Shown here one piece after another: positions 44,940 through 60,709 of a stretch of 64,000 bases of DNA. A program made the translations under genes and the position numbers. A model generated the notes under the pieces. That model saw only the letters and a list, made by a program, of their open reading frames with translations, was not told the DNA's origin and did no database searches. Within the stretch, counting starts at the first letter, position 1. Every line of letters starts with the position of its first letter. The DNA is from Candidatus Nitricoxidivorans perseverans (GTDB lineage: Bacteria > Pseudomonadota > Gammaproteobacteria > Burkholderiales > Rhodocyclaceae), in contig CP107246.1 of the NCBI GenBank assembly GCA_030246985.1, positions 2,358,282 to 2,422,281 on the forward strand, read 5' to 3'.

Positions 44940-44964
44940 ATTCGCGCCCGCCTCCCCCCATAAT
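44936..44964 (+). promoter_or_regulatory. sigma-70 promoter of the tmRNA gene
   Basis: TTGAAT (44936-44941), exactly 17 bases, then CATAAT (44959-44964). It sits just upstream of the acceptor piece and overlaps the stop codon of the preceding gene. Transcription would start near 44971. Confidence 0.65.
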
Positions 44965-44970
44965 GACGGC

Positions 44971-45190
44971 ACGGTCGTAATTCCGGCAAACCGGAAGCGT
45001 TCTGGACGCGGGTTCGATTCCCGCCACCTCCACCACTGGGGGGGTGTACTGGCTTCGACAGGGCGACAGATGGCGAGCAGGCGGCCCGAAAGGCGACGGA
45101 CGTAATCCGCGCAAATCCACAAACGCCAACGATGAGCGTTTTGCACTGGCCGCCTAAGGCCTATGCCGAGGCCGCTTTAGCCTTGTAACC
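44971..45190 (+). ncRNA. ssrA: transfer-messenger RNA, circularly permuted two-piece (betaproteobacterial type)
   Basis: The 3' tRNA-like half comes first: a T-arm GCGGG-TTCGATT-CCCGC and acceptor strand CACCTCC-A-CCA ending at 45035. Only four bases later the 5' half begins with GGGGGTG at 45040, which pairs with CACCTCC over seven positions, then GTACTGGCTTCGACA (D-loop-like). The tag frame at 45125-45157 reads ANDERFALAA followed by TAA, a betaproteobacterial tmRNA tag. This order, acceptor piece before coding piece, is the permuted form in which processing yields two RNA chains. tmRNA with SmpB rescues stalled ribosomes and tags proteins for proteolysis. The outer ends are approximate. 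Confidence 0.9.
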
Positions 45191-45200
45191 AAAGAAAAGC

Positions 45201-45226
45201 CGGCGGGGACCTTCGGGTTCCCGCCG
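45201..45226 (+). terminator. terminator of the tmRNA gene
   Basis: GGCGGGGACC (45202-45211), TTCG loop, GGTTCCCGCC (45216-45225), one G-T pair, extended by C45201-G45226. The following TCATTTCC is only weakly T-rich. Confidence 0.85.
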
Positions 45227-45258
45227 TCATTTCCAGGGAGGTTTCCGGCGCGGTGGAA

Positions 45259-47412
45259 TCAGTCGTGCCGCCGCGATGCCGCGACGAAGGTGTCGCTGCG
45301 CGCGGGCGGCTTGAGCGGGTCGTCCTCGCCGGCGTACTCGGCGCGCGAATAAACCTTTTCGAGCGCCTGGTCGGCGGTGGAGAAGAAGCGGTGCTCGCCG
45401 ATCATTTTCCACAGCCCGGTGGCCTGCATGACGTCGATCACCTGTTTCTTGAGGCCCGAGAAAAGCACGACGACGCCGCTTTCGTTGAGCCGTTCGACCA
45501 GATGATGGATCACTTCTTCGCCGGAGGCGTCGATGTCGTTGATGCCGTCGCCGACGATGAGCACGTAGGGTGCGTCCGGGTTGTTCGCCACCGCCTCGAG
45601 TACGGCGTCCTCGAAATAGGAGACGTTGGCGAAGTAGAGGCGGCCGTCGAAGCGGATCGCCGTGACCACGTTGGAGGCCGGCAGGTGATGGACCTTCGCG
45701 TCGCGCAGCGTACCGTCGTGGAAGCGGCCGAGGATGGCGACGCGCGGCTTCATCGTCTGGTAGAGGAACAGCACCAGCGCGAGGCCGGCGCCGACCATGA
45801 TGCCGCGGTCCAGGTGCGGCGCCGCCAGCAGGGTGACGGCGAAGGTGGCGACGGCGACGATGCCGTCGACGCGGCTGGCCTTCCATGCGTGCTTGATCGC
45901 CTTTGGCGTGACGAGACTCGTCACCGCCAGCAGGATGATGACCGCCAGCACGGCCTTGGGCAGGTGATAGAGATACGGGGTCAGGAACAGCAGCGTGACG
46001 GCGACGAATACGCCGTTGAACACCGAGGCCAGGCCCGTCTTCGCGCCGGCCTGGAGGTTGATCGCCGAGCCGGTGAAGGAGCCGCAGGACGGATAGGCCT
46101 GGAAGAAGGCGCCGCCGAGGTTCGACAGACCCTGCCCGATCAGCTCCTGGTTCGGGTCGAGGCGCTGCTTGGTCTGCGCCGCCAGCGCCTTGGCCATGGA
46201 GATCGTCTCCATGAAGGCGACCAGAGCGACGATGAAGGCGGCGGACAGCAGGGACAGCAGAGCGTCCCAGGTCAGCGTCGGCAGCCGGAAGGAAGGCAGG
46301 CCGGCGGGAATGCTGCCCACGACGTCGCCCCCCCCCGACAGCAGCATCTCGCCCTTCTCGATCTTCTTGACATGCCAGTCGTGGCCGTCGATTTGCGCGC
46401 CGGCGGGCGCCGCGCCCCTGACATGGATCTGCGCCGCTCCGCCCTCCGCGGCCGGCACGAGCTCGAAGTGCAGGCGGTTGATCTTGGCCTTGCGCGCCTT
46501 GTTCTGCGCCTCCAGGGATTTCAGTTGGATCTGCAACAGGTCGAGATCGTGGCGCAGATCCGCCGTGGCATGGGCATCGTGCGCCTTCTCGGCGGCGCGC
46601 AGTCGCGTCGATTTTGCCGTGAATTCCGTCATCAGCTCGCCGATCCTGCGGTCGGCCTCGACATAGCCCGTCACGAGTTCCCGCGCGGCGGGATCGACGA
46701 TCTGGTCCGGACCGGCCTTGGCCTTCTTCTCGTAGCCGGTGGCCACGCTGACGAGAATGGTGATGACCACGGTGATCAGCACGCTGGGCTTGGCGAGCGC
46801 GGGAATCTTCTTCAGCCCCAGCATGAGCGCCAGCGCCAGGAGGGACATGGCGAGCGTCGGCAGGTGGGTCTGCGGCAGGTAGCCCATCATCTCCCAGATG
46901 TCCTTGAGGAAGGAATCCGAGCGGCCCTTGGGGATGCCCAGGAACATGTCGAGCTGGGACAGCGCGATGATGATGGCCGCCGCGTTGATGAAGCCCAGGA
47001 TGACCGGGTGCGAGACGAAATTGACGATGGTGCCCAGCTTGAAGGCCCCCATGCCGAACTGGATGACGCCCACCATCAGCGTCAGCAGTAGCGCCAGGCC
47101 GATGTATTCCTCGGTGAAGGGCACCGCCAGCGGCGTGACGGCGGCGGCGGTCATCAGGGAAACGATGGCCACCGGCCCGGAGAGCAGTTGCCGCGAGGAA
47201 CCCCAGAGCGCACCCAGGATGGCCGGGATGAACGCCGTGTAGAGACCGAAATAGATCGGCAGGCCCGAAAGCTGCGCGTAGGCCATCGCCTTGGGCACCA
47301 GCACCAGCGCGCCGACGATGCCGGCCATCAAATCGCCGCGAAAGACGACCGAATTGATCGGGAACCAGGACAGGAAAGGGAAAAGGCGCAGCAGCAGCGT
47401 GTTGGCGAACAT
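45259..47412 (-). CDS. SulP family anion transporter with STAS domain and an extra internal insert
   Basis: A 717-aa transporter. The membrane domain begins FRGDLMAGIVGALVLVPKAMAYAQLSGLP; the SulP signature NQELIGQGLSNLGGAFFQAYPSCGSFTGSAIN is present, and a STAS domain occupies the C-terminal ~150 residues. SulP proteins carry sulfate, bicarbonate and related anions. Between two membrane segments (about residues 227-362) lies a charged, helical, coiled-coil-like insert that its paralogue at 51796 lacks. A good SD (GAGGA) supports the ATG at 47412; earlier in-frame starts are weaker. It is divergent from a carbonic anhydrase gene, which hints at bicarbonate. Confidence 0.9.
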   Translation of the reverse strand: MFANTLLLRLFPFLSWFPINSVVFRGDLMAGIVGALVLVPKAMAYAQLSGLPIYFGLYTAFIPAILGALWGSSRQLLSGPVAIVSLMTAAAVTPLAVPFTEEYIGLALLLTLMVGVIQFGMGAFKLGTIVNFVSHPVILGFINAAAIIIALSQLDMFLGIPKGRSDSFLKDIWEMMGYLPQTHLPTLAMSLLALALMLGLKKIPALAKPSVLITVVITILVSVATGYEKKAKAGPDQIVDPAARELVTGYVEADRRIGELMTEFTAKSTRLRAAEKAHDAHATADLRHDLDLLQIQLKSLEAQNKARKAKINRLHFELVPAAEGGAAQIHVRGAAPAGAQIDGHDWHVKKIEKGEMLLSGGGDVVGSIPAGLPSFRLPTLTWDALLSLLSAAFIVALVAFMETISMAKALAAQTKQRLDPNQELIGQGLSNLGGAFFQAYPSCGSFTGSAINLQAGAKTGLASVFNGVFVAVTLLFLTPYLYHLPKAVLAVIILLAVTSLVTPKAIKHAWKASRVDGIVAVATFAVTLLAAPHLDRGIMVGAGLALVLFLYQTMKPRVAILGRFHDGTLRDAKVHHLPASNVVTAIRFDGRLYFANVSYFEDAVLEAVANNPDAPYVLIVGDGINDIDASGEEVIHHLVERLNESGVVVLFSGLKKQVIDVMQATGLWKMIGEHRFFSTADQALEKVYSRAEYAGEDDPLKPPARSDTFVAASRRHD

Positions 47413-47587
47413 GGGAATCCTCGGGGACGTATCGGGCATTGGCGTAAAATGCGCACCCGAATGATGCGAACTACAACGGATACGCTGCAAACCGCAGCAT
47501 TTTATCCCCGCTATGCGGCGCGAACGAGCAAGGCGTGTTATTTGGGTATCACCCTGATTTATCCCTTCCAATCTCAAAGGAAAGACC

Positions 47588-48148
47588 GTGATCCGAAAGA
47601 ATCCCAGCGGCGACCTGCCGCTGATCCACGAGTCCGCCTATGTGGACGCCACGGCCATCATCTGCGGCAAGGTGGTCATCGCCGAGAACGTCTTCGTCGG
47701 CCCCTACGCGGTGATTCGCGCCGACGAGGTGAACCAGGCGGGCGGGATGGAGCCGGTCCTGATCGGCGCGCATTCCAACATCCAGGATGGCGTGGTGATC
47801 CACTCGAAGGCCGGCGGCCTGGTCATGATCGGCGAGCATACGTCGATCGCCCACCGATCCATCGTCCATGGGCCCTGCGAGGTGGGCAGCCACGTCTTCA
47901 TTGGCTTCAACTCGGTGCTGTTCAACTGCACCGTGGGCGACCGCTCGGTCGTGCGCCACAACTCGGTGGTGGAGGGTTGCCGCATTCCGCCGGGCTTCCA
48001 CATTCCGTCGACCAGCAACATTCGCTCGGACGCCGATCTCGCCGGCATCGAGCAGGTGACGCCGCAGGCGGCCGACTTCTCGGAATCGGTGGCCCTCGCC
48101 AACCACGAGCTGGTCAAGGGCTACAAGAAGCTCCAGAACGAGTTCTGA
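47588..48148 (+). CDS. gamma-class carbonic anhydrase-like protein (left-handed beta-helix)
   Basis: A 186-aa left-handed parallel beta-helix protein built from hexapeptide repeats. The three zinc-binding histidines of gamma carbonic anhydrases are conserved: H72 in NIQDGVVIH, and H89 and H94 in IAHRSIVHG. A loop EVNQAGGMEPV interrupts the helix as in Cam-type enzymes. The start is GTG at 47588 with SD AAAGGA. It is divergent from the SulP gene across a 175-base region, so the pair may act together in CO2/bicarbonate handling. Activity is inferred from the histidines only. Confidence 0.88.
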   Translation: MIRKNPSGDLPLIHESAYVDATAIICGKVVIAENVFVGPYAVIRADEVNQAGGMEPVLIGAHSNIQDGVVIHSKAGGLVMIGEHTSIAHRSIVHGPCEVGSHVFIGFNSVLFNCTVGDRSVVRHNSVVEGCRIPPGFHIPSTSNIRSDADLAGIEQVTPQAADFSESVALANHELVKGYKKLQNEF

Positions 48149-48152
48149 CCGC

Positions 48153-49511
48153 CTATTCCATCTCGAGCTGGTAGCGCTTGAGCTTGCGCCACAGCGAGAC
48201 GCGGTCGATGCCGAGGATCTGCGCGGCCAGCGTCTGGTTTCCGCCGGTTTCCTGGAGCACCCAGCGGATGTAGTCGCGCTCCTGCTCCTCCAGCGAGGGC
48301 AGCCGGCCTTCCTTCTTGCGGAAGGTGCGGATGGTCAGCTCGCGCAGGTCGTCGGGAAGATGGGCGGACTCGATGGTGTCGCCGGTGGCGATGGCGACCC
48401 CGCGCTCGATGATGTTCTCCAACTCGCGCACGTTGCCGGGAAAGTCGTAGGCCTTGAGGATGTCCAGTGCCTCGGCGGAAATTTCCGCCACCGGTTTGCC
48501 CATGCGGACCGCGCATTTCTTGAGGAAATGGTAGGCCAGTAGCGGCACGTCGTCGCGGCGCCGCGACAGCGGCGGGATGTGGAGATTGACGACATTGAGC
48601 CGGAAATAGAGGTCCTGGCGGAACTCTCCCTGTTTCACCATGTCCTGCATGTCCCGGTTGGTGGCGGCGACAAAGCGCACATCCACCTTCACTGGTGTCG
48701 TGGCGCCCAGGGGAAGCACTTCCCGTTCCTGGATGACCCGCAGCAGCTTGACCTGCATGGCCAGGGGCATCTCGGTGATTTCGTCGAGGAACAAGGTGCC
48801 GCCGTCTGCCGCCACCAGCAGACCTTTCTTGTCGGTGGCGGCGCCGGTGAAGGCGCCCCTGACGTGGCCGAAGAGCTCGTTGGCGAGCAGCTCCTCGTTG
48901 AATGCGCCGCAATTGACGGCCAGGAAGTGCCCTTCCGCCCGTCGGCTGTGGTGGTGCAGATACTGGGCAAAGAGTTCCTTCCCGGTGCCCGATTCTCCGG
49001 TGATCAGTACGTTGCAGTCGGTGGGGGCGATCTGACGGGACATGTCCAGCAGCCGCTGCATTTCGCCATCCTGAGTGATGATGCGCACCTTGCCCTGGAA
49101 ACTCTCGACCTGTTCGCGCAGGGCGCAGTTCTCCCGGCGCAGGCGGATTTTTTCCATTGCCTCCGCCACCACTTTGCGCACCTCGTCGAGACGAAAGGGC
49201 TTGGCGATATAGTAGAAGGCGCCTTGCTTCATGGCGTCCACCGCCGATTCCAGCGTGGCGTAGCCAGTGATGAGAATGACTTCCGTGTCGGGACAGCTTT
49301 CCCGGCATTTTTTCAGAATCTGCAAGCCGTCCACTTTCTCCATGCGCAGGTCGGTGAGGACGACATCGAATTGCTGCTTGTCGAGGTGGGTCAGTGCGTT
49401 GGCGCCGCTCTGGGTGGCGGTCACCTCGTAGCCTTCCTTCTTCAGCACGTGTTCGAGATTCTTCACGGCGATCTTTTCATCGTCCACGATCAGCAGTTTT
49501 CCGTTAGACAT
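48153..49511 (-). CDS. sigma-54-dependent response regulator (NtrC family)
   Basis: A 452-aa regulator in three parts. The receiver (1-120) has D54 in FDVVLTDLRM. The AAA+ domain (about 140-375) has Walker A GESGTGKE (172-179), the sigma-54-contacting GAFTGA (219-224), and Walker B FLDEITEMP. A Fis-type helix-turn-helix closes the protein (NQTLAAQILGIDRVSLWRKL). It should activate a sigma-54 promoter when phosphorylated; a matching promoter lies 1.6 kb away at 51156. Starts at 49511 and 49517 are both possible. It overlaps the end of the kinase gene by eight bases, so both are cotranscribed. Confidence 0.95.
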   Translation of the reverse strand: MSNGKLLIVDDEKIAVKNLEHVLKKEGYEVTATQSGANALTHLDKQQFDVVLTDLRMEKVDGLQILKKCRESCPDTEVILITGYATLESAVDAMKQGAFYYIAKPFRLDEVRKVVAEAMEKIRLRRENCALREQVESFQGKVRIITQDGEMQRLLDMSRQIAPTDCNVLITGESGTGKELFAQYLHHHSRRAEGHFLAVNCGAFNEELLANELFGHVRGAFTGAATDKKGLLVAADGGTLFLDEITEMPLAMQVKLLRVIQEREVLPLGATTPVKVDVRFVAATNRDMQDMVKQGEFRQDLYFRLNVVNLHIPPLSRRRDDVPLLAYHFLKKCAVRMGKPVAEISAEALDILKAYDFPGNVRELENIIERGVAIATGDTIESAHLPDDLRELTIRTFRKKEGRLPSLEEQERDYIRWVLQETGGNQTLAAQILGIDRVSLWRKLKRYQLEME

Positions 49512-50955
49512 GCGCATCCCCCAATGGCAAGCGGACGAAGAAGGCCGTCCCCTTGCCGGGCTGGCTTTCCACGGCGATGCAGCCGCCGTGTTCCTCGATG
49601 ATTTCGAAAACGATGAACAGCCCCAGCCCCAGGCCCCTGCCCACCTCCTTGGTGGTGAAGAAGGGGTCGAAGATGCGGGGCAGGATGTCGGCGGCAATCC
49701 CGATGCCGTCGTCGCGGATCTCGATTTCCGCCGCTTCGCCATGACCGGCGCACTGGCCGAAAACCAGCCGGCCTGGCGGGCAGGGGCTGTGGTCGTCGCG
49801 GACAGTGCGTGCCGTGATCTGGACATTGCCGACGCCCGCCACCGCCTCGACGGCGTTGCGGATCAGGTTGAGGAATGCCTGTTGCAGGCGCTGCTTGTCG
49901 CCCAGTATCGCTAGGTCTGCGGGAATCTGGCTCGACACCGATACCTGGGCCGGAATCTGGCCACGGATCAGGCGCAGGGTTTCCTCGACCAAGGAGGCGA
50001 TAAGCAGGGATTCCCGAATGAACTCGCGGTCGCGGGCATAGTCGAGGAGCGAGCGCACGATCTGGCGCGCGCGCCAGGTTTCTCCGTTGATCTGGTCGAG
50101 AAGATCCTGCCTGTAGGTCAGGTCGGCATCCTCGATTTCCTCAACCAGGATTTGGCAGGAAGTGGCGATGTTGGACAGGGGGTTGTTGAGTTCGTGGGCA
50201 ACGCCGGAAAGCAGCGTGCCCAGGGCGGCGAGTTTCTCCGAACGCACCAGTTGCCGCTGGCGCAGTTCAAGTTCCTGGATCACGTGGTTGAAGGCCTGGG
50301 TCAGCGAGATGATTTCACGGTCTTCGGCGGCCATTTCCAGCTTGGCGAGCTGGTTGGCGGCCACCGCCTCCATACTCGCCTCCATCTGCTTGAGGGGACG
50401 AGCGACCCGGCGCGAGAGCAACTGGCCGATGATGATCACCAGCAGCGTCACCCCGGTGACGGAGCCGATCAATATCTGGCGGTGCCGGTCCAGCAGGGCC
50501 TGGAGGGTACGGCGCTCTGCCTTGGCCAGGGCTTCGGCGACGGTGACTATTTCCTTGCCGGTCTTCCGGATGACGCCTGCCAGTGCCTCGTTGTCGCCTC
50601 CCCGTCCGTATTCCTCCATCAGTGCGGCATAGCGTTCCAGGTCGCCCGCCAGCCAGCCGATGCGAGCGGGCTCGTCAAGAGCCTCGAAGAGCGGGTCGCG
50701 TCCACGCAGCAGGGCGCTGGCGCGACCGACGTATTCCCGGTTTTCGGCCAGGTCGGCCGCCTGTCGGTACAGGAAGTAATTCTTCTCGAAACGCCGGATC
50801 TCGAGGGAGATGTCGAAGAACTCGGCGATACGTTCGCCGGCGGCGATTTTCCGCTCCAGCAGTTGCAGTTCGATAAAGGAAAGCAGCGACAGGCCGATCA
50901 CCAGGACGCCGATGACCGAGTAGCCGAAGATGATTTTCTGACGCAGGGAATTCAT
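49504..50955 (-). CDS. membrane sensor histidine kinase with HAMP domain
   Basis: A 483-aa kinase. Two membrane helices (about 7-29 and 161-181) flank a helical periplasmic sensing domain of about 130 residues. HAMP follows (about 182-235), then the H-box GVAHELNNPLSNI with H254 and an HATPase domain (NLIRNAVEAV, RDDGIGIA, GRGLGLGLFIVFEII). The HELNNPL form is typical of NtrB/DctB-type kinases that feed sigma-54 activators. The periplasmic domain is a four-helix type without a recognisable ligand motif. Its start lies 20 bases from a TTGCA palindrome, so it may be autoregulated. Confidence 0.93.
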   Translation of the reverse strand: MNSLRQKIIFGYSVIGVLVIGLSLLSFIELQLLERKIAAGERIAEFFDISLEIRRFEKNYFLYRQAADLAENREYVGRASALLRGRDPLFEALDEPARIGWLAGDLERYAALMEEYGRGGDNEALAGVIRKTGKEIVTVAEALAKAERRTLQALLDRHRQILIGSVTGVTLLVIIIGQLLSRRVARPLKQMEASMEAVAANQLAKLEMAAEDREIISLTQAFNHVIQELELRQRQLVRSEKLAALGTLLSGVAHELNNPLSNIATSCQILVEEIEDADLTYRQDLLDQINGETWRARQIVRSLLDYARDREFIRESLLIASLVEETLRLIRGQIPAQVSVSSQIPADLAILGDKQRLQQAFLNLIRNAVEAVAGVGNVQITARTVRDDHSPCPPGRLVFGQCAGHGEAAEIEIRDDGIGIAADILPRIFDPFFTTKEVGRGLGLGLFIVFEIIEEHGGCIAVESQPGKGTAFFVRLPLGDAHV

Positions 50956-50974
50956 GGATGATAGCCGCAAATAA

Positions 50975-51210: not shown

Positions 51211-51435
51211 GTGTGGTCTGCCTGGTTCAAGAGATTGAAAGCCCGTGTCACCGACATCTTCGCCGGAGCGAGTGAATTTGAGGCGGCCCGCGAAAACGCT
51301 TACGTCGCGGAACGCCTGGAAAATAACTTCCTGATTTCGACGAATTCAAACAGTATGCCGATGGCGCTAACTGCCCATGACTCGCTTCAAGCACGATCGC
51401 AAAGTGTTGCTTGCCGTCCGTGCCGGGCGCATTGA
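51211..51435 (+). CDS. small protein of unknown function, first gene of the sigma-54 operon
   Basis: A 74-aa protein starting at GTG after a strong ribosome site (AAGGAG, about 51198-51203). It begins MWSAWFKRLKARVTDIFAG, an amphipathic helix with a Trp-rich, basic end that could touch a membrane. EFEAARENAYVAERLENNF and STNSNSMPMALTAHDSL follow. Its last 59 bases overlap the UspA-like gene in another frame, so its C-terminal tail (RSQSVACRPCRAH) may be less constrained. I do not recognise a family. As the first gene after a sigma-54 promoter it should be expressed whenever the operon is on. Confidence 0.65.
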   Translation: MWSAWFKRLKARVTDIFAGASEFEAARENAYVAERLENNFLISTNSNSMPMALTAHDSLQARSQSVACRPCRAH

Positions 51436-51778
51436 TCCGCGCCTGCTGGCTTCGGCCCGCAGCCTGAGCCAGCGCATGGACGCCGACCTCGACATCCTCG
51501 TGCTGGCCGCCGGCGCCGGTGACGCGATCCCGGCGGAGGTCGATGCCTTCGTCAGGACCCTGCGCGACGAGGGCGTCGCCTACACGCTGACCGTGAAGCC
51601 TGGCTTGCGCCGACGGGACATCGTGCAGTACGCCAACACCCACGAGTGCATCGCCACGGTGGTGATCGATTCCATCGAGGGCTGGGAGAGCGTGGCCGCG
51701 GACCGCGCCTCCGATCCGTGGGCGAGGCTCGCTTGCCCGCTCGTGACCGCCGCTCCGGCCAAGACTTCAAATCACTGA
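51377..51778 (+). CDS. UspA-like small alpha/beta protein
   Basis: A 133-aa protein with the start of a universal-stress-protein fold: KVLLAVRAGRIDPRLLASARSLSQRMDADLDILVLAAG, a nucleotide-binding-type alpha/beta layout. The usual C-terminal G-2x-G-9x-G(S/T) ATP motif is not visible, so it may not bind ATP. It lies between the novel small protein and the second SulP gene, with 17 bases to the latter. No good ribosome site precedes it, which points to coupling with the overlapping upstream gene. A regulator of the transporter is possible but is inference. Confidence 0.68.
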   Translation: MTRFKHDRKVLLAVRAGRIDPRLLASARSLSQRMDADLDILVLAAGAGDAIPAEVDAFVRTLRDEGVAYTLTVKPGLRRRDIVQYANTHECIATVVIDSIEGWESVAADRASDPWARLACPLVTAAPAKTSNH

Positions 51779-51795
51779 TATCCGACAGACCCATC

Positions 51796-53529
51796 GTGAA
51801 ACTTTCCCCCAAGGCCTTGTTTCCCTTCCTGCGCTGGCTGCCCTACCGGGGCGAGACCCTGCGCGCCGATTTCATCGCCGGCCTGACCGTGGCCCTCGTG
51901 CTGGTGCCGCAGTCCATGGCCTACGCCCAGCTCGCCGGGCTACCCGCCTACTACGGCCTCTACGCGGCCTTCCTGCCGGTGATGGTGGCGGTTCTGTGGG
52001 GGTCTTCCAACCAGCTCGGCACCGGGCCGGTGGCGGTGGTCTCGCTGCTGACGGCGTCCTCCCTCTCGGTCTTCGCCGCGCCGGGTTCCGACGAGTTCGT
52101 GGCGCTGGCGATCATGCTGGCCCTGCTGGTGGGCGTCGTCCAGCTCGCGCTGGGCGTGTTCAAGCTCGGCGTCATCGTCAACTTCCTCTCGCATCCGGTC
52201 ATCGTCGGCTTCACCAACGCCGCCGCCATGATCATCGGCCTGTCGCAGGTCAACAAGTTGATCGGCGTGCCCATGGGCCGCTCCGAGCATTTCATCCAGG
52301 ACATCTGGGGCGTGATCCAAAAGACCGGCGACACGCACCTGCCGACGCTGGCCATGGGCGTCGTCGCCATCGCCATCATGTGGGCGATCCGCCGGAAGGC
52401 GCCGAAGCTGCCGGGGGTGCTGATCGCCGTGGCCATCACCACCACGGCTTCCTGGGCGATGGATTTCGAAGCCGCGCTCGGCGGAAAGGTCGTGGGCGGC
52501 ATTCCGGAAGGTCTGCCCTCGCTCAGCCTGCCGACGATCTCCTGGGACAAGGTCGGCAGCCTGCTTTCCGCCGCCATCGTCATCTCGCTCGTGGGCTTCA
52601 TGGAGGCGATCTCCATCGCCAAGGCCATCGCCGCACGGACCAAGCAGCGCATCGACCCGAACCAGGAACTCATCGGCCAGGGCTTGGCCAACATCGTCGG
52701 CGCCATGAGCCAGGCCTTTCCGGTGTCCGGCTCCTTCTCGCGCTCGGCGGTCAACATCAACGCCGGCGCCCTCACGGGGATGTCCTCGGTGTTCACGGGC
52801 CTCTTCGTGCTGCTGACCCTGCTGCTGCTGACGCCGCTGCTCTACCACCTGCCGCAGGCGGTGCTGGCGGCGGTGATCATCATGGCGGTGATCGGCCTCA
52901 TCAACTTCGACGCCGTCAAGCATGCCTGGCACGCCAACAAGCACGACGGCATCGCCGCCGTTGTCACCTTCATCGCCACGCTGGCCGCCGCGCCCCATCT
53001 CGACAACGGCATCATGGTCGGCGCGGGGCTGGCAATCGGCCTCTATCTCTATCGCACCATGTCGCCGCGCGTGGCCATCCTCGGCCGCTATCACGACGGC
53101 ACGCTGCGCGATGCGAGGGTGCATCACCTGCCGGCCTCCGACGTGGTCACCGCCGTGCGCTTCGACGGGCGCCTGTATTTCGCCAACGTCGCCTACTTCG
53201 AGGACGCCATCCTCGAAGCCGTGGCCGAAAACCCGAAGGCCCGCCACCTGCTGGTGGTGGCCGACGGCATCAACGAGATGGACGCCTCCGGCGAGGAGGT
53301 GATGCACCACATCGTCGAGCGTCTGCGCGGCGGCGGCGTGACCGTGGCGTTCTCCGGCCTCAAGAAACAGGTGATCGACGTCATGCGCGCCACCGGCCTG
53401 TTCGAGGCCATCGGCCAGGCCAACATCCACGCCACCGCCGACCATGCCCTGGCCGCGATCTACGCCCAGGCGGGCGACGGCGGCCGCGAGGACGCCCTGC
53501 GGCCCATCCGGGCAACCGCGGCGGCCTGA
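51796..53529 (+). CDS. SulP family anion transporter with STAS domain
   Basis: A 577-aa transporter of standard length. It begins at GTG; the first helices contain RADFIAGLTVALVLVPQSMAYAQLAGLP. The SulP signature NQELIGQGLANIVGAMSQAFPVSGSFSRSAVN and a C-terminal STAS domain (VRFDGRLYFANVAYFEDAI, INEMDASGEEVMHHIVERL) follow. Its STAS domain and last helices are very close to those of the SulP at 45259, so the two are recent paralogues, but this one lacks the insert. It lies inside the sigma-54 operon and is followed 18 bases later by hyfB. Sulfate or bicarbonate are the likely substrates; sequence does not decide. Confidence 0.92.
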   Translation: MKLSPKALFPFLRWLPYRGETLRADFIAGLTVALVLVPQSMAYAQLAGLPAYYGLYAAFLPVMVAVLWGSSNQLGTGPVAVVSLLTASSLSVFAAPGSDEFVALAIMLALLVGVVQLALGVFKLGVIVNFLSHPVIVGFTNAAAMIIGLSQVNKLIGVPMGRSEHFIQDIWGVIQKTGDTHLPTLAMGVVAIAIMWAIRRKAPKLPGVLIAVAITTTASWAMDFEAALGGKVVGGIPEGLPSLSLPTISWDKVGSLLSAAIVISLVGFMEAISIAKAIAARTKQRIDPNQELIGQGLANIVGAMSQAFPVSGSFSRSAVNINAGALTGMSSVFTGLFVLLTLLLLTPLLYHLPQAVLAAVIIMAVIGLINFDAVKHAWHANKHDGIAAVVTFIATLAAAPHLDNGIMVGAGLAIGLYLYRTMSPRVAILGRYHDGTLRDARVHHLPASDVVTAVRFDGRLYFANVAYFEDAILEAVAENPKARHLLVVADGINEMDASGEEVMHHIVERLRGGGVTVAFSGLKKQVIDVMRATGLFEAIGQANIHATADHALAAIYAQAGDGGREDALRPIRATAAA

Positions 53530-53547: not shown

Positions 53548-55563
53548 ATGCTGAACCCGCTGCCCACGCTGTTGCCGATAGACGCCCTGCTGATCGCCGC
53601 CTGCGCGTGGCTGGCGGTCGGGCTGGCGGGGTTGGTGGCGCCGCGCCGCTTCATCGGCAAGTTCCTGTTTTCAGTCGGTGCGCTGATCGGCTTCTCCGTC
53701 GGCGTCACGGCGCTGTGCTTCCTCGGCCAGCCCGCGGAAACCGCGGTGCTCGCCATCGGCCTGCCGACGCTGCCCTTCCACCTGCGCCTGGACAGCCTGA
53801 CGGCCGTCTTCGCGTTGCTGCTCGGCCTCGCATCGGTCGGCATCTCGGTCTATTCCGCCGGCTATTTCCGGTCGGGCGAAGGGGCGGCGCCGGGCCTGCT
53901 CTGCTTCGAATATCACGTCTTCCTCGCCAGCATGCTTATGGTGCTGCTGGCCGACGACGCCTACGCCTTCATGGTGGCCTGGGAGGGCATGGCCCTGTCG
54001 TCCTTCTTCCTGGTCACGACCAACCATCGCGACGAGGAGATCCGCCGCGCCGGCTATCTCTACCTCCTGATCGCGCATATCGGCGCCATCAGCATCCTGC
54101 TGTCCTTCGGCGTCATGACGGGCGGAGCGGGCGACTATACCTTCGCCGGCATGCGCGCGCAGCAGCTCTCGCCCTTCTGGGCATCGTGCGCCTTCCTGCT
54201 CGCGCTCTTCGGCTTCGGCGCCAAGGCGGGCCTCGTGCCCGTCCATGTCTGGCTGCCGGAGGCGCACCCGGCGGCGCCCTCGCCGGTGTCGGCCATGATG
54301 TCCGGCGTCATGCTCAAGACCGCGATCTACGGCCTGCTGCGCGTCTCATTCGACCTGCTCGGCTCGCCGCTCTGGTGGTGGGGCGTGACGGCGATGGCGG
54401 TCGGCCTCGTCACCGCGCTGTTCGGCGTCCTCTACGCCACGGTGCAGAACGACATGAAGCGCCTGCTCGCCTATTCCTCGATCGAGAACATCGGCCTCCT
54501 GGCCGTCGGCATCGGGCTGGCCATGATCTTCCACGCCTTCCGCATGGAGGCGCTGGCCGCCCTGGCGATGACGGCGGTGCTCTACCACTGCCTTGCCCAT
54601 GCCGGCTTCAAAAGCCTGCTGTTCCTGTGCACCGGCTCGGTGCTGCACGCCACCGGCGAGCGCAGCCTCTCCAGGCTCGGCGGCCTCATCCACCGCATGC
54701 CCTGGGTGGCGTGGCTCGCGCTCGCCGGCGTCATCAGTGGCGCCGGCCTGCCGCCGTTGTCGGGCTTCGTGTCCGAGTGGCTGCTGCTCCAGGCCTTCCT
54801 GTTCTCGCCCGGCCTGCCGCATTCCTGGCTCAATATGGCGGTACCCGTGGCCGCCGCGCTGGTGGCGCTGGTGGCGGCGCTGGCCGGCTTCGCCATGGTC
54901 AAGTTCTTCGGCATCATCTTCCTCGGCCAGATGCGCGATCCGGCGCTCAAGGACGCCCACGACGCCGGTCCCTGGGAGAAGGCGGGCCTCGTCTGGCTGA
55001 CGGGCCTGACCGTGCTGCTGGGTGTAATGCCCTCCACCGTGATCTCCGCCATCGACGCCGCCACCCGGCAGATGCTGGGCGCGGGGCTGGCCGACAAGGT
55101 AAGCGAGCACGGCTGGTGGATGCTGGCGCCCATCTCGCCCGACCGGGCCAGCTACGAGCCGCTGATCTTCCTCGCCACCATCGCCGCCGTCCTGCTGCTG
55201 GGCCGCTGGCTGGTCGTGCGCCTCTACCACGGCCGCCTGCGGCGCACGACGCCCTGGGATTGCGGCTATGTCTTTGGCGGCCCGCGCGCCCAGGACACGG
55301 CCGAGGGCTTTTCGCAGCCGATCCGCCGCATCTTCGAGCCCATGTTCCGCATGGAATTCCGCCTCCCGTCCATCCGGGACGCCGCGCCCCGCTACGGCGT
55401 CAAGGTCGAGGATCATTTCTGGCACTGGCTCTATCTGCCCCTGGCGCGCCTGGTCGGCTGGATTTCCACCCTCGTCACGACCCTGCAGGGCGGGCGCATC
55501 GCCATCTACCTGCTCTACAGTTTCCTGACGCTCATCGTTCTGCTGCTGGTGGCCCGGCCATGA
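53548..55563 (+). CDS. hyfB: hydrogenase-4/complex I-like membrane subunit HyfB (NuoL/MrpA-type)
   Basis: A 671-aa multi-helix antiporter-like subunit. The proton-translocation core shows AWEGMALSSFFLVTTNH (key Glu), FGFGAKAGLVPVHVWLPEAHPAAPSPVSAMMSGVMLKTAIYGL (Lys and His residues), and LLAYSSIENIGLLAVGIG. This is the HyfB/HycC type of group 4 hydrogenases and Ehr complexes. A -10-like TAGAAT overlaps the end of the SulP gene at 53530, only 12 bases before the ATG, so it may be chance. The stop overlaps the next ATG by four bases. Confidence 0.93.
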   Translation: MLNPLPTLLPIDALLIAACAWLAVGLAGLVAPRRFIGKFLFSVGALIGFSVGVTALCFLGQPAETAVLAIGLPTLPFHLRLDSLTAVFALLLGLASVGISVYSAGYFRSGEGAAPGLLCFEYHVFLASMLMVLLADDAYAFMVAWEGMALSSFFLVTTNHRDEEIRRAGYLYLLIAHIGAISILLSFGVMTGGAGDYTFAGMRAQQLSPFWASCAFLLALFGFGAKAGLVPVHVWLPEAHPAAPSPVSAMMSGVMLKTAIYGLLRVSFDLLGSPLWWWGVTAMAVGLVTALFGVLYATVQNDMKRLLAYSSIENIGLLAVGIGLAMIFHAFRMEALAALAMTAVLYHCLAHAGFKSLLFLCTGSVLHATGERSLSRLGGLIHRMPWVAWLALAGVISGAGLPPLSGFVSEWLLLQAFLFSPGLPHSWLNMAVPVAAALVALVAALAGFAMVKFFGIIFLGQMRDPALKDAHDAGPWEKAGLVWLTGLTVLLGVMPSTVISAIDAATRQMLGAGLADKVSEHGWWMLAPISPDRASYEPLIFLATIAAVLLLGRWLVVRLYHGRLRRTTPWDCGYVFGGPRAQDTAEGFSQPIRRIFEPMFRMEFRLPSIRDAAPRYGVKVEDHFWHWLYLPLARLVGWISTLVTTLQGGRIAIYLLYSFLTLIVLLLVARP

Positions 55564-56507
55564 CAGGCATCCTCGGACAGCTGTTCGCCATCGTGCTGGC
55601 CCTCATCCTGGCGCCGCTGCTCACGGGATGGGTGAACCAGTGCCGCGCGTGGTTCCAGAACCGGACGGCGCCGCCGCTGCGGCAGCAGTACTACATGCTG
55701 CACAAGCTGTTCCACAAGGATGTGGTGCTGGCCCACGGCGCCTCGCCGCTCTTCCGCTTCGCGCCCTTCCTGGTATTCGGCTGCATGGTGCTGGCCTGCG
55801 GCATCATCCCCAGCCTGTCGACCGACCTGCCGTTTGCGCCGGCGGCGGACGTCATCGCGCTGGTGGGCGTCTTCGGCCTGGCGCGCGTATTCATTTCGCT
55901 GGCGGCCATGGACATCGGCACCTCCTTCGGCAGCCTGGGCGGGCGGCGCGAGATGCTGGTCGGCTTCCTGGCCGAGCCGGCGCTGCTGATGGTGATCTTC
56001 ACCGTGGCCATGATCGCCCAATCGACCTCCATGACCACCATCGTCGAGACCCTGGCGCACAAAGAGTATGTGATCTATCCGAGCCTGGCCTTCGCCGGCA
56101 TCGCCTTCACCTTCGTTTCGTTCGCGGAGAACGCCCGCGTGCCGGTGGACAACCCCGCCACCCACCTCGAACTGACCATGATCCACGAGGCCATGATCCT
56201 GGAGTACTCCGGGCGCCACCTCGCGCTGATCGAGTGGGCGTCGAGCCTCAAGCTCTACGCCTATTCCTGCCTGGGCCTCGCGCTGTTCTTCCCCTGGGGC
56301 ATCGCCGAGCGCGACAACCTCATGGCGCTGGTCGCGGCGATCCCGCTGCTCGTGTTCAAGCTCGCCATCGGCGGCTTCCTGCTGGCGCTGATCGAGACCA
56401 TCAACGCCAAGGTGCGCATCTTCCGCGTACCCGAGTTCCTGGGCACCGCCTTCCTGCTGGCGGTGCTGGGCCTGCTGGTGCGGCTGCTGCTGGAGGTGAG
56501 GGCATGA
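55560..56507 (+). CDS. hyfC: HyfC/NuoH-like membrane subunit
   Basis: A 315-aa membrane protein of the NuoH/HycD/HyfC type, the subunit that connects the membrane arm to the Fe-S arm. Conserved segments: PLRQQYYMLHKLFHKD, FAENARVPVDNPATHLELTMIHEAMILEYSGRHLAL with the run of acidic residues, and ALIETINAKVRIFRVPEFL. The ATG overlaps the hyfB stop; its own stop overlaps the hyfE ATG. Confidence 0.95.
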   Translation: MTGILGQLFAIVLALILAPLLTGWVNQCRAWFQNRTAPPLRQQYYMLHKLFHKDVVLAHGASPLFRFAPFLVFGCMVLACGIIPSLSTDLPFAPAADVIALVGVFGLARVFISLAAMDIGTSFGSLGGRREMLVGFLAEPALLMVIFTVAMIAQSTSMTTIVETLAHKEYVIYPSLAFAGIAFTFVSFAENARVPVDNPATHLELTMIHEAMILEYSGRHLALIEWASSLKLYAYSCLGLALFFPWGIAERDNLMALVAAIPLLVFKLAIGGFLLALIETINAKVRIFRVPEFLGTAFLLAVLGLLVRLLLEVRA

Positions 56508-57172
56508 GCGCCGCCATCCCATTGTCCGCGCAGCTCATCAATCTCTGCGCCTCGGTGATCCTGCTGCTGGCCTTCGCCATGCTGGCGCAGCGCCGGGTGC
56601 TGCCCCTCATCAACCTGTTCGCGCTCCAGGGCCTGACCCTGTCCATGTCGACCTTCGTGGTCGCATTCACCACCGGCCAGCGCCATCTGTACGCGTCGGC
56701 GGGGCTCACGCTTGCGCTCAAGGCGCTGCTGCTGCCCTGGATCCTGCGCCGGCTGGTGCGCAAGCTCTGGGCCAAGTGGGATGTCGAATCGCTCGTCAAC
56801 GTGCCCACCACCATGCTGATCGGCATCGTGCTGGTGATGATCGCCTTCAACGTCGCGCAGCCCATTTCGCTGCTCTCGCATACCATCAGCCGCGGCACGC
56901 TGGGCATCGCGCTGGCCACCGTCATGCTTGCCTTCTTGATGATGATCACCCGCACCAAGGCCATCCCGCAGGTGATCGGCTTCCTGGCGATGGAGAACGG
57001 CCTTTTCCTCGCCGCCACCAGCGCCACCTACGGCATGCCGATGGTGGTCGAGCTGGGCATCGCGCTCGACGTGCTGGTCGGCGTCATCATCCTCGGCGTG
57101 TTCTTCTTCCAGATCCGCGACCAGTTCGACAGCCTGGACATCCGCCACATGGAACGCCTGAAGGAAAGATGA
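56504..57172 (+). CDS. hyfE: HyfE-like membrane subunit
   Basis: A 222-aa membrane protein of the HyfE family, whose C-terminal half is NuoK-like (TRTKAIPQVIGFLAMENGLFLAATSATYGMPMVVELGIALDVLV, with the buried Glu residues that conduct protons in NuoK). About six or seven hydrophobic segments. HyfE is found in hydrogenase-4, Ehr and related complexes but not in complex I or hydrogenase-3. Overlaps hyfC and hyfF by four bases each. Confidence 0.93.
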   Translation: MSAAIPLSAQLINLCASVILLLAFAMLAQRRVLPLINLFALQGLTLSMSTFVVAFTTGQRHLYASAGLTLALKALLLPWILRRLVRKLWAKWDVESLVNVPTTMLIGIVLVMIAFNVAQPISLLSHTISRGTLGIALATVMLAFLMMITRTKAIPQVIGFLAMENGLFLAATSATYGMPMVVELGIALDVLVGVIILGVFFFQIRDQFDSLDIRHMERLKER

Positions 57173-58623
57173 TGGATTTCTTCATCCTCGTCCTCGCCAT
57201 CCCCCTCGTCAGCGGCGTGCTGCTGACGGTGCTCGGGGAGCGCGAATGGGCGCCCAACCTCAACATCATCGCCAGCGGCGGCACATTCCTCGCCTCGGCG
57301 CTGCTGACGGCCGAGATCATCGCCCACGGCCCGCGCTTCGCCTTCGGCGAGCTGTTCTTCATCGACTCGATGAACGTGTTCTTCGTGACGCTCACCGCCT
57401 TCGTCGGGATGACGACCAGCATCTTCTCCGGCCCCTACATGAAGAACGAGCGCGAGCACGGAAAGCTCACGGTGCAGCGCCTGCGCCTCTACAAGAGCAT
57501 GTTTCAGCTCTTCATGTTCACCATGCTCGTGGCGCTCACCACCAACAACCTCGGCATCCTCTGGGTGGCGATGGAGGCGGCGACGCTGACCACCGTGCTT
57601 CTCGTCTCGCTCTACCGCTCGCCGGCCTCCCTTGAGGCGGCCTGGAAGTATTTCATCCTCTGCGGCGTCGGCATCGCCCAGGCCCTGTTCGGCACCATCC
57701 TGCTCTACTTCGCCGCCGAGCGCGTGCTGGGCGAGACCGGCAACGCCCTGCTCTGGACCCACCTGGTGGATGTGAAGGGGCAGCTCGAACCGACCATCAT
57801 GGCGCTCTCGTTCATCTTCCTGCTGGTCGGCTACGGTACCAAGGTTGGACTCGCGCCGCTGCACAACTGGCTGCCCGACGCCCACGCCGAGGGCCCGACG
57901 CCGGTCTCCGCGGTGCTTTCCGGCCTGCTGCTCAACGTTGCGCTCTACGCCATCCTGCGGGTGAAGGTGCTGGCCGACGGCGCGATCCCGGGCAACTACG
58001 CCGGCAATCTGATGATGGGCTTCGGGCTGCTGACGCTGCTGGTGGCGGCCTTCTTTCTCTCCAGGCAGCGCGACATCAAGCGCATGTTCGCCTATTCGTC
58101 CATCGAGCACATGGGCCTCATCACCTTCGCGTTCGGCATGGGCGGCGCGGTGGCGAACTTCGCCGGGCTGCTGCACATGACGATGCACTCGCTGACCAAG
58201 TCGGCCATCTTCTTCGCCGTCGGCCATGCCGCGCAGAAGATGGGAACGCAGATCATGGAGGACATCCGCGGCCTTATCAAGGTCAATCCGCTGATCGGCT
58301 GGGGGCTGATGCTGGGCACGCTGGCCATCCTCGGCATGCCGCCCTTCGGCGTGTTCGCCAGCGAGTTCATGATCCTCACGCATGCGATGAAGCATTACCC
58401 GTGGGCCACGCCGATCCTGCTGACGGCGCTGGGCGTCGCCTTCGCGGCCATCTTCGGCAAGGTGCAGCCGATGGTCTTCGACGAGACCCGCGCGAAGCCG
58501 CTGCCGCATGCGCCGGCCATCACGCCGGTCTTCCTGCACCTGGCCATCGTGCTGATGATGGGCCTGTACATTCCCCCCTATCTCACGCGCTGGTTCCATG
58601 AGGCCGCAAGGATGATGGGATGA
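57169..58623 (+). CDS. hyfF: HyfF/NuoN-like membrane subunit
   Basis: A 484-aa antiporter-like subunit. It shows AMEAATLTTVLLVSLYRSPASLEAAWKY (key Glu), VGYGTKVGLAPLHNWLPDAHAEGPTPVSAVLSGLLLNVALYAI and MFAYSSIEHMGLITFAFG, the Glu/Lys/His set needed for proton movement. Second antiporter-like subunit of the complex beside HyfB. Two adjacent ATG codons (57169 and 57172) are possible starts; the first continues the ATGA overlap used throughout this operon. Confidence 0.94.
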   Translation: MMDFFILVLAIPLVSGVLLTVLGEREWAPNLNIIASGGTFLASALLTAEIIAHGPRFAFGELFFIDSMNVFFVTLTAFVGMTTSIFSGPYMKNEREHGKLTVQRLRLYKSMFQLFMFTMLVALTTNNLGILWVAMEAATLTTVLLVSLYRSPASLEAAWKYFILCGVGIAQALFGTILLYFAAERVLGETGNALLWTHLVDVKGQLEPTIMALSFIFLLVGYGTKVGLAPLHNWLPDAHAEGPTPVSAVLSGLLLNVALYAILRVKVLADGAIPGNYAGNLMMGFGLLTLLVAAFFLSRQRDIKRMFAYSSIEHMGLITFAFGMGGAVANFAGLLHMTMHSLTKSAIFFAVGHAAQKMGTQIMEDIRGLIKVNPLIGWGLMLGTLAILGMPPFGVFASEFMILTHAMKHYPWATPILLTALGVAFAAIFGKVQPMVFDETRAKPLPHAPAITPVFLHLAIVLMMGLYIPPYLTRWFHEAARMMG

Positions 58624-60188
58624 GTACGGTACGGTTTCTCGACCAGCCCATCGAATTCGCCGAACAGGAGGGCGTGGGCGCCCCGGTCTGGATCGGGCAG
58701 GCGCCGGACGGCGCCGGCTTGCTGGCCTTCGCCGTCGCTGCGCACCGCGCCGGTGGCCGGCTGGCGGCGATCTGGGGCTCGGACGAGCGGAAGAACGGCC
58801 AGGGTTTCCGCGTCAATTGCGTCTTCGGCATCGACGCCGGACACGCCTGGGTGAGACTCGACCTCGCCGAGGACAACCCCGTCTATCCCGACCTTGCAGG
58901 CATCTTCCCCGCCGCCAACCGCATGCAGCGCGCCACGCGCGACATGGTCGGCATCGCCATCGACGGCGGAGATCAAAGGCCCTGGCTGCGCCACGGCGGC
59001 TGGCCGGCGGACTGGTTCCCGCTGCGCCACGACGCGCCGGCCGCCGACTTCCCCAACGGCCCCACCGACTACGACTTCGTCCGGGTCGAAGGCAAGGGCG
59101 CCCACGAGATTCCCGTCGGCCCCATCCACGCCGGCATCATCGAGCCCGGCCACTTCCGCTTCTCCGTCGTCGGCGAGCGCGTGCTGCGCCTGGAGCAGCG
59201 CCTGGGCTACCAGCACAAGGGCGTGGAGCGGCGCCTCATCGGCATGGACATCGATCGGGGCGCGAAGCTCGTCGGCCGCATCTCCGGCGACTCGACCTGC
59301 GCCTACGCCTGGGCCTACGCCGTGGCGGTGGAATCGGCCTGCGGCGTCGAGCCGCCGCCGCGCGCCCTGGGCCTGCGGGCGCTGATGCTGGAGCGCGAGC
59401 GCGTCGCCAACCATCTCGGCGACCTCGGCATGCTCGGCAACGACGCGGCCTTCGGCTTCGGTCTCACGCAGTTCTTCAAGCTCAAGGAAGACTGGGTGCG
59501 CCTGTCGCACCGGGCCTTCGGCCACCGCTTCATGATGGATTGCATCGTGCCCGGCGGAATTGTGGATACGGCCAACCCGGACGCTGCGCTGCGCTCCGCC
59601 ATGGCCGCGCAGTGCGACGTCGTCGAGCGCGAGGTACGGGAACTGAAGGTCCTCTACGACGAGCACGCCGGCCTGCAGGACCGCTTCCTCACTACCGGCG
59701 CCATCAACGACGCGCTGGCGCAGGAACTCTCGCTCACCGGCATCGCCGCCCGCGCGACCGGCACGCTGCTGGACGGGCGCGTATGGAGTCAGGGCTACGA
59801 GCCGCCGGTGCCCTACGCGGGCCTGGGCGTGCGGCCGGTTTCAGACGTGCGCGGCGACGTCGCGGCGCGCGCGGCCGTGCGCTTCGCCGAGGTCTTCGAG
59901 TCGCTGCGCCTGATCCGAAAGCTGGTGGCCGGCATGCCGGGCGGCTCCGCCCGCGCGAAGATCGCGCCCCGCGCCGGGAAGGGGCTGGGCGTCATCGAAG
60001 GCTGGCGCGGCGAGGTGCTGGTGGGCGTCGAGCTGGACGCCGAGGGCCGCATCCTCCGCGCCCATCCCCACGATCCCTCCTGGCAGGTCTGGCCGGCGCT
60101 CGAACACGCGGTGATGAAGGACATCGTTCCCGACTTCCCGCTCATCAACAAGTCGTTCAACCTTTCCTACTCCGGGCAAGACATATGA
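58620..60188 (+). CDS. hyfG: HyfG-like fused NuoC/NuoD subunit lacking the nickel site
   Basis: A 522-aa fusion. Residues 1-165 are NuoC-like (WVRLDLAEDNPVYPDLAGIFPAA) and the rest is a large-subunit/NuoD domain (IPVGPIHAGIIEPGHFRF, EQRLGYQHKGVERRLIG). In [NiFe] hydrogenases four cysteines hold nickel. Here the N-terminal site reads RISGDSTCAY (S222 and S225 in the two Cys positions), and the C-terminal site reads HDPSWQVW (S487 and V490). All four ligands are gone, so it cannot be a hydrogenase. This places it with energy-converting-hydrogenase-related (Ehr) complexes. ATGA overlaps on both sides. Confidence 0.93.
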   Translation: MSTVRFLDQPIEFAEQEGVGAPVWIGQAPDGAGLLAFAVAAHRAGGRLAAIWGSDERKNGQGFRVNCVFGIDAGHAWVRLDLAEDNPVYPDLAGIFPAANRMQRATRDMVGIAIDGGDQRPWLRHGGWPADWFPLRHDAPAADFPNGPTDYDFVRVEGKGAHEIPVGPIHAGIIEPGHFRFSVVGERVLRLEQRLGYQHKGVERRLIGMDIDRGAKLVGRISGDSTCAYAWAYAVAVESACGVEPPPRALGLRALMLERERVANHLGDLGMLGNDAAFGFGLTQFFKLKEDWVRLSHRAFGHRFMMDCIVPGGIVDTANPDAALRSAMAAQCDVVEREVRELKVLYDEHAGLQDRFLTTGAINDALAQELSLTGIAARATGTLLDGRVWSQGYEPPVPYAGLGVRPVSDVRGDVAARAAVRFAEVFESLRLIRKLVAGMPGGSARAKIAPRAGKGLGVIEGWRGEVLVGVELDAEGRILRAHPHDPSWQVWPALEHAVMKDIVPDFPLINKSFNLSYSGQDI

Positions 60189-60709
60189 TTCCCTTGCTCA
60201 AGCGCATCCTCAAGACCGGCATCCTCACCGAGCCGCCGGCGACCGTCGACATCGGCCCGCAGCCGGAGGTGGCGCGCCTGAACGACGAGGTTCTACGCAT
60301 CCTCGGCCGCGCGCTCACCATCCGCGAGGTCGACGCCGGTTCGTGCAACGGTTGCGAACTGGAGATCCACGCCCTCAACAACGCCTACTACAACATCGAG
60401 GGACGCGGCATCAAGTTCGTCGCCAGCCCCCGCCATGCCGACATGCTGCTCGTGACCGGCCCGGTCACGAAGAACATGGAGACCGCGCTGAAAGTCGCCT
60501 ACGACTGCACGCCCGATCCCAAGCTGGTGGTGGCGGTGGGCGATTGCGGCTGCGGCTGCGGCGAGGTCGGCGAGCTCTTCGGCCCGAACTACGCGACCTG
60601 CGGCGCCGTCGAAAATGTCATTCCCGTCGATGCGCGCGTGCCCGGCTGCCCGCCGACGCCAGTCGCGCTGATGCAGGGCATCCTCGCCGCCATCCGACCC
60701 CGCGGCTGA
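60185..60709 (+). CDS. hyfI: HyfI/NuoB-like Fe-S subunit
   Basis: A 174-aa NuoB/HycG-type protein. The ligands of the N2-type [4Fe-4S] cluster are intact: C54 and C57 in SCNGCELE, C121 in VAVGDCGCG, and C155 in RVPGCPP. So the electron-accepting cluster next to HyfG is retained although HyfG has lost nickel. It is the last gene of the complex. No HyfA, HyfD, HyfH (ferredoxin-like) or HyfJ gene is present here. Confidence 0.94.
   Translation: MIPLLKRILKTGILTEPPATVDIGPQPEVARLNDEVLRILGRALTIREVDAGSCNGCELEIHALNNAYYNIEGRGIKFVASPRHADMLLVTGPVTKNMETALKVAYDCTPDPKLVVAVGDCGCGCGEVGELFGPNYATCGAVENVIPVDARVPGCPPTPVALMQGILAAIRPRG

Follow-up and report, generated by a model that had tools for sequence, protein, structure and literature searches.

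A conserved, predicted periplasmic domain between helices 7 and 8 in a branch of SulP/SLC26 transporters

In autotrophic Proteobacteria, SulP proteins are listed among the importers of inorganic carbon, though biochemical work on further members is needed (PMC10880623). In Thiomicrospira pelophila, a SulP encoded beside the carboxysome genes was reported to rescue carbonic-anhydrase-less E. coli (PMC12628692). For the SLC26 fold, the account of AtSULTR4;1 assigns TM1–4 and 8–11 to the core and TM5–7 and 12–14 to the gate; TM10 Arg393 supplies positive potential and leans on TM1 Gln112, and exchange of either residue for Ala nearly abolishes transport (PMC8298490). Among sulfate reducers, Marietou et al. 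2018 describe long, ~710-aa group Ci SulPs with a ~90-residue insertion that adds a TM helix (PMC5840216).

The window analysed here, a 64,000-nucleotide stretch from Candidatus Nitricoxidivorans perseverans, encodes two SulP paralogues that differ by an extra stretch.

45259–47412, minus strand: SulP-A, insert-bearing SulP/SLC26 transporter with a C-terminal STAS domain (717 aa plus stop; Pfam, open frame, AlphaFold2 model)
46324–46731, minus strand: inserted domain, SulP-A residues 228–363 (MAFFT alignment, loop lengths, AlphaFold2)
51796–53529, plus strand: SulP-B, 577-aa paralogue without the insert, which it has probably lost, with the scar EAALGGKVVGG (alignment, loop lengths, trees)

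The SulP-A reading frame runs from 47412 to 45259, with an alternative open start nine codons upstream at 47439. Pfam recognised Sulfate_transp in two parts (343.4 bits; gathering threshold 23.2) followed by STAS (50.9 bits; gathering threshold 22.6), and TIGR00815 scored 400.8 bits at a cut-off of 380.45. Scores for the BicA equivalog NF050096 (119.2 bits; cut-off 880) and the DauA equivalog NF008660 (196.3 bits; cut-off 614) stayed below threshold. A tmRNA gene (tag ANDERFALAA; 44943–45248) is convergent with SulP-A and lies 10 bases from its end.

Aligned with MAFFT, SulP-A and SulP-B match over their whole length but for one long gap of ~136 residues (228–363). A preliminary description of this DNA, made from its letters alone, had reported ~135 extra residues at 46327–46734. 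The stretch is real and the flanks quoted for it, ITILVSVATGYE and VVGSIPAGLPSF, agree between the two proteins as claimed; its position, by our alignment, shifts by one codon.

The insert as a conserved, predicted soluble domain

Loop lengths between TM7 and TM8 were compared across 162 SulP proteins of more than 480 aa, drawn from loci of relatives and from the best 80 of 126 loci matching an insert-bearing query, after removal of 12 of 174 SulP matches (two duplicate loci and ten fragments of ≤480 aa). The proposed search for SulPs with the same insert was rewarding: 104 of the 162 proteins carry a homologous loop of 132–139 residues, the other 58 have 6–21 residues, and there are no intermediates. 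The extra stretch of SulP-A is one conserved homologous domain, far beyond chance, and SulP-A belongs to an insert-bearing subfamily with a homologous TM7–TM8 domain of about 125–139 residues; in the copy at L147, the hmm envelope of the insert spans 96 residues only. The best 80 of 126 loci carry no frequency information, the query being insert-bearing and one of its six peptide patterns lying inside the insert; by their record labels they come from Betaproteobacteria, Gammaproteobacteria, Magnetococcales, Desulfobulbaceae and other sulfate-reducer genera.

Scanning genomes in six frames with an insert profile gave matches in 17 of 398 Pseudomonadota genomes (18 when a doubtful match in G037 is kept); in the source organism's class the figure was 28 of 369. 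The matching frames are all of SulP size apart from three: one has an internal stop, one is slightly short and the third is the G037 match. Most SulP-bearing relatives lack the insert, which agrees with the preliminary description. The G037 match (L131; 161-aa frame, E 7.8e-6) was considered as a free-standing copy of the domain and rejected, as it covers positions 17–86 only, is helical and has no beta part; we read it as a chance match to a coiled coil. When plasmids were searched with SulP-A, a single record had one place covering at least 80% of the query, namely a mobilizable plasmid of Legionella adelaidensis. Its SulP (L159:5950-8097; NZ_LR134433.1) matches SulP-A over 95% of length, has a long TM7–TM8 loop and is annotated merely as a SulP family transporter.

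AlphaFold2 modelled full-length SulP-A with a pLDDT of 90.5 and a pTM of 0.84 (80-row alignment, the first row of which begins one codon earlier, so that residue numbers in the full model equal SulP-A numbering + 1). Modelled alone, the insert reached a pLDDT of 94.3 and comprised a strand, helices 241–276 and 280–312, and four strands. The predicted fold is an independent one: two helices paired as a coiled-coil hairpin, carried by a small beta subdomain.

46738–46785, minus strand: TM7, residues 210–225, end of the gate half before the insert (full AlphaFold2 model)
46714–46731, minus strand: first short strand of the beta subdomain, residues 228–233 (AlphaFold2)
46585–46692, minus strand: hairpin helix 1, residues 241–276 (AlphaFold2)
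46477–46575, minus strand: hairpin helix 2, residues 280–312 (AlphaFold2)
46330–46470, minus strand: beta subdomain, residues 315–361, with Pro336, Asp342, Trp346 and the terminal glycines 360–362; best conserved part (AlphaFold2 and conservation)
46171–46269, minus strand: TM8, residues 382–414, containing the conserved Glu402 (full AlphaFold2 model and alignment)

The models bear out both an extramembrane helical arm between membrane helices and the short beta-rich part that had been proposed, the latter with strands at 315–319, 328–331, 345–352 and 355–361. Hydropathy agrees with the first of these: in 104 inserts, no 19-residue Kyte–Doolittle window qualified as a transmembrane segment, the highest mean being 1.21 against a threshold of 1.6. 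That the insert adds a TM helix, as Marietou et al. 2018 state for group Ci (PMC5840216), was rejected on this hydropathy; with a soluble fold predicted at high confidence besides, it is a very improbable account of the inserts studied here.

No PDB structure matched the insert as a whole (best Foldseek E 0.064, with the VIA-align rows mainly on the hairpin), and its hairpin part resembles generic coiled coils in the PDB. A Pfam scan of the SulP-A insert gave no match over cut-off; across 88 inserts, the commonest Pfam-A match was ATG16 (9/88), itself a coiled-coil resemblance. Our literature search of open-licence PubMed Central found no published periplasmic or extracellular domain in a SulP.

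The nearest structures to the full SulP-A model were SLC26 proteins (Z 52 for prestin, Z 50 for AtSULTR4;1). With 551–558 residues aligned to AtSULTR4;1 and prestin at an rmsd of 4.1–4.2, the model has the 14-TM core and gate fold, with the insert between TM7 and TM8. Because the insert has seven helices ahead of it and a further seven before STAS begins, and because Lys and Arg are in excess in the inside loops (11 versus 3 outside, TM7–8 loop excluded), the insert would face the periplasm, opposite a cytosolic STAS domain. Given that TM5–7 belong to the gate and TM8–11 to the core in AtSULTR4;1, it would sit in the core–gate linker.

Conservation is uneven along the protein. In an 88-row alignment, median pairwise identity was 36% for the insert, 63% for STAS and as high as 76% and 74% for the two membrane halves. 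Positions conserved in at least 80% of rows fall mostly in the beta subdomain, where the conserved positions are an Arg (in the column of 318), Gly333, Pro336, Gly338, Asp342, Gly343, Trp346, Lys349–350, Gly354, Leu358 and Gly360–362; those of the hairpin are Arg272, Lys276, Leu286 and Asn304. When 20 additional members were aligned, the Trp346 column held Trp in all 20, while Lys349–350 were not kept. The low identity of the insert, together with several independent losses (below), could be taken to mean that it is a tolerated, nearly neutral decoration. Its length nevertheless stays within 132–139 residues in 104/104 cases despite the divergence, Pro336, Asp342, Trp346 and Gly361–362 are near-invariant, and the domain is retained across Pseudomonadota classes and Thermodesulfobacteriota, so we hold near-neutrality to be distinctly unlikely.

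History of the insert and its neighbouring genes

In a tree of the transporter built without the insert (161 rows), all insert-bearing SulPs group in a single branch that also contains five short-loop SulPs, SulP-B among them. The same branching appeared in a 127-row tree that includes distant members and for which L021, L042, L028 and roughly half the insert-bearing rows had been dropped or thinned. Separation of insert-bearing from short-loop rows was rejected by the AU test (p 3.7e-15; 53 rows, nine long-branched rows having been removed and others thinned further). The simplest reading of these trees is a single deep gain followed by several losses; repeated transfer or gene conversion may offer another route to the same distribution. 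The putative losses are the short-loop members inside the insert branch, that is SulP-B, L011, L066 and L064/L065. Their scars are alike and contain Gly-Gly (EAALGGK, VTELGGQ, EQTLGGK, ENAGGK). The nearest kin of SulP-B keep the insert, and their loci also hold HyfB-like genes. Since the domain would have been gained once, deep in the tree, and later lost by SulP-B, the SulP-A/SulP-B pair appears to bear no sign of a recent insertion. The preliminary description had attributed the 140-residue length difference to one insertion; trees and AU test argue instead that the insert is ancestral to both proteins and that SulP-B lost it.

The genes between the two SulP genes include the following.

47588–48148, plus strand: gamma carbonic anhydrase-like hexapeptide protein, divergent from SulP-A (profile matches)
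48153–49520, minus strand: sigma-54 (NtrC-type) response regulator, conserved neighbour (Pfam, locus comparison)
49504–50970, minus strand: histidine kinase with HAMP, HisKA and HATPase, conserved neighbour (Pfam, locus comparison)

A gamma carbonic anhydrase occurs in the flanks of 26 of the 80 close-relative loci (best 80 of 126). Genome-wide, the co-occurrence with insert-bearing SulPs raised in the preliminary description does not hold (2/50 insert-bearing genomes versus 6/30 without the insert). In one genome (G038:C13:93563-93679), a 39-residue piece 72% identical to the gamma carbonic anhydrase C-terminus lies just ahead of an insert SulP and is perhaps a gene remnant.

The regulator and kinase pair (48153–50970) is conserved beside SulPs with and without the insert. 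Docking of the arm onto the neighbouring histidine kinase, which would make a transporter–sensor pair, could draw on kinase matches at 41/80 and regulator matches at 42/80 loci (best 80 of 126; E ≤1e-10; some just 23–40% identical) and on a kinase sensor region found in 19/50 insert-bearing versus 4/30 other genomes. The kinase, however, tracks SulP loci rather than the insert: it also adjoins insert-less SulPs in G011 (63% identical kinase), G009 and G004 (short-loop copy), which weakens an insert-specific tie and leaves kinase docking unlikely.

Beside SulP-B, a Hyf/complex-I-like gene set extends from 53548 to 60709 (Pfam Proton_antipo_M, Complex1_49kDa/30kDa, Oxidored_q6); judged by eye, its large subunit appears to lack the NiFe hydrogenase cysteines. 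HyfB-like matches, some weak, were found in 18/80 related loci (best 80 of 126). Ahead of SulP-B, a 133-aa open reading frame (51377–51778) has no Pfam match and is conserved in 25/80 related loci (best 80 of 126). An additional 857-aa SulP near a SulP-A homologue (L037:10376-12949) carries STAS and universal stress protein domains by Pfam, and similar SulPs of 855–881 aa occur in other related loci. That these third SulPs are carbonic anhydrase fusions was considered and discarded, Pfam showing a universal stress protein domain in the one scanned, that of L037.

Carbon-fixation context and the anion site

Inorganic-carbon genes accompany the insert at genome level. RuBisCO or DabA was present in 48/50 insert-bearing genomes versus 13/30 controls, the latter being hand-picked (15 relatives and 15 of the same class; G001, G010 and G030, with SulP copies cut at contig ends, left out) and not phylogeny-matched, and related genomes not being independent, so that Fisher values serve as a rough guide. 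Taken singly and under the same limits, RuBisCO was found in 33/50 versus 11/30 and DabA in 29/50 versus 6/30; within the source organism's class alone, RuBisCO was found in 25/27 versus 5/15. In 9/27 insert-bearing genomes of that class, the insert SulP lies ≤15 kb from RuBisCO, with CsoS2 at 8/9 such loci.

Among Gammaproteobacteria, insert-bearing SulPs occur in or near alpha-carboxysome, SbtA and DabA loci. By Pfam, L140 holds RuBisCO, CsoS2, EutN/CcmL and BMC genes, L144 SbtA and a PII-like protein, and L146 DabA and an antiporter subunit, all among 20 locus stretches that were hand-chosen, nine of them for nearby RuBisCO. In L148, L149 and L152 the insert SulP was found by search and was absent from the gene picks, probably since only the longest overlapping frame was kept.

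Gene context and genome co-occurrence make bicarbonate the likeliest cargo of the insert-bearing family, most likely for the carboxysome-linked branch and less surely for the branch of SulP-A. The carboxysome link is absent from the latter, with CsoS2 at 0/80 and CbbL at 1/80 close-relative loci (best 80 of 126); the source genome has RuBisCO and lacks DabA. Against the carbon reading we count insert SulPs in Desulfobulbales and on the Legionella adelaidensis plasmid, whose hosts may not be autotrophs.

The SulP-A branch also departs from AtSULTR4;1 at the two residues named above.

47290–47292, minus strand: Lys41 in TM1, corresponding to Gln112 of AtSULTR4;1, one half of a charge swap (alignment)
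46069–46071, minus strand: Gly448 in TM10, corresponding to Arg393 of AtSULTR4;1, the other half (alignment)

SulP-A, with Lys41 and Gly448, thus lacks the SULTR-like sulfate site of TM1 Gln and TM10 Arg. Lys takes the place of the TM1 Gln in 82/104 insert-bearing SulPs; of these 82, 79 have Gly at the TM10 Arg position and 2 have Ala, the position being masked in the last one. The remaining 22 retain Gln and Arg. Insert loci L114–L130 (n = 17) divide into 14 with Lys and Gly and 3 with Gln and Arg. All 20 further insert members have Gln and Arg, as does SulP-B. In these alignments the TM1 and TM10 sites change together, as if the positive charge had moved, and the altered anion site of the SulP-A branch may signify another cargo.

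A possible role and comparison with known systems

In our reading, SulP-A is an SLC26/SulP transporter of 14 helices that has, besides its cytosolic STAS domain, an extra periplasmic TM7–TM8 domain for regulation or docking, and its presumed cargo is bicarbonate; taken as a whole, this reading stands in our judgement at an even balance. The insert would work as a periplasmic regulatory or docking module, an outside counterpart of STAS. The TM7–TM8 linker would join the gate half, or scaffold, to the mobile, anion-carrying core half, and the conserved base of the domain, the beta subdomain that contains the Trp and ends in Gly-Gly, could sit at this linker and set core mobility, while the hairpin (33–36 residues per helix, ~50 angstroms) may extend towards a partner or the second subunit's arm. 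Because conservation is stronger in the base than in the arm, we prefer a role at the linker to that of a generic coiled coil. That SulP-B, L011, L066 and L064/L065 do without the domain counts against a regulatory role; repeated loss also suggests that the domain modulates transport and that transport itself manages without it.

The hairpin might instead serve as a dimer arm, the coiled coils of both subunits pairing in the periplasm and stabilising the SLC26 homodimer. AtSULTR4;1 and other SLC26 proteins are described as homodimers (PMC8298490), and helix 2 carries extra conserved hydrophobics (284, 292, 295) and an aromatic/His position (288) near the tip, outside the main 3-4 stripe. Yet one stripe would already be buried in a monomeric antiparallel hairpin, and repeated domain loss presumably leaves dimers intact; we consider a dimer arm doubtful. 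Returning to regulation at the linker, a bolder and rather tentative extension is that in proteobacterial bicarbonate importers an outside domain at the hinge joining the mobile and fixed halves of an elevator-type transporter gates uptake from the periplasm, in response to carbonate species, pH or a partner, as STAS would from the cytosol, and that in one branch the binding-site charge has moved from TM10 to TM1.

Bicarbonate and sulfate SulPs fall into a single Pfam family, and a periplasmic domain that marks the carboxysome-, SbtA- or DabA-side branch would help to separate the two; the Gln–Lys/Arg–Gly swap is a second candidate marker of specificity. Natural domain-less paralogues, arisen several times, provide a clean comparison for the role of the domain, and the insert itself is a new handle on the possible control of bicarbonate uptake in carbon-fixing bacteria.

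With AtSULTR4;1, prestin, SLC26Dg and BicA, SulP-A shares the 14-TM core and gate fold and the STAS domain, and its acidic residue in TM8 is as in AtSULTR4;1. In profile alignments, AtSULTR4;1, prestin and rice SPDT show no more than some 30 residues opposite about 130–155 of SulP-A, leaving no room for a TM7–TM8 domain. BicA, a bicarbonate-type SulP, is a distant match. Thiomicrospira pelophila SulP-CS is described as lying beside a carboxysome locus and an SbtA gene (PMC12628692), as the SulPs do in L144 and L145, a likeness of gene neighbourhood alone. The group Ci SulPs are, in the published description, putative sulfate transporters with Firmicutes members and a 90-residue insertion that adds a TM helix, whereas the insert here has 136 residues and is predicted to be soluble. 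They resemble the insert family in their ~710-aa length and in their Desulfobulbus and Desulfomicrobium members, and the Leu that group Ci has at the PXYGLY proline (PMC5840216) is also present in L102, L107, L108, L110, L111 and L113. Set side by side with that description by length, genera and the PXYGLY Leu, group Ci likely overlaps the insert-bearing family.
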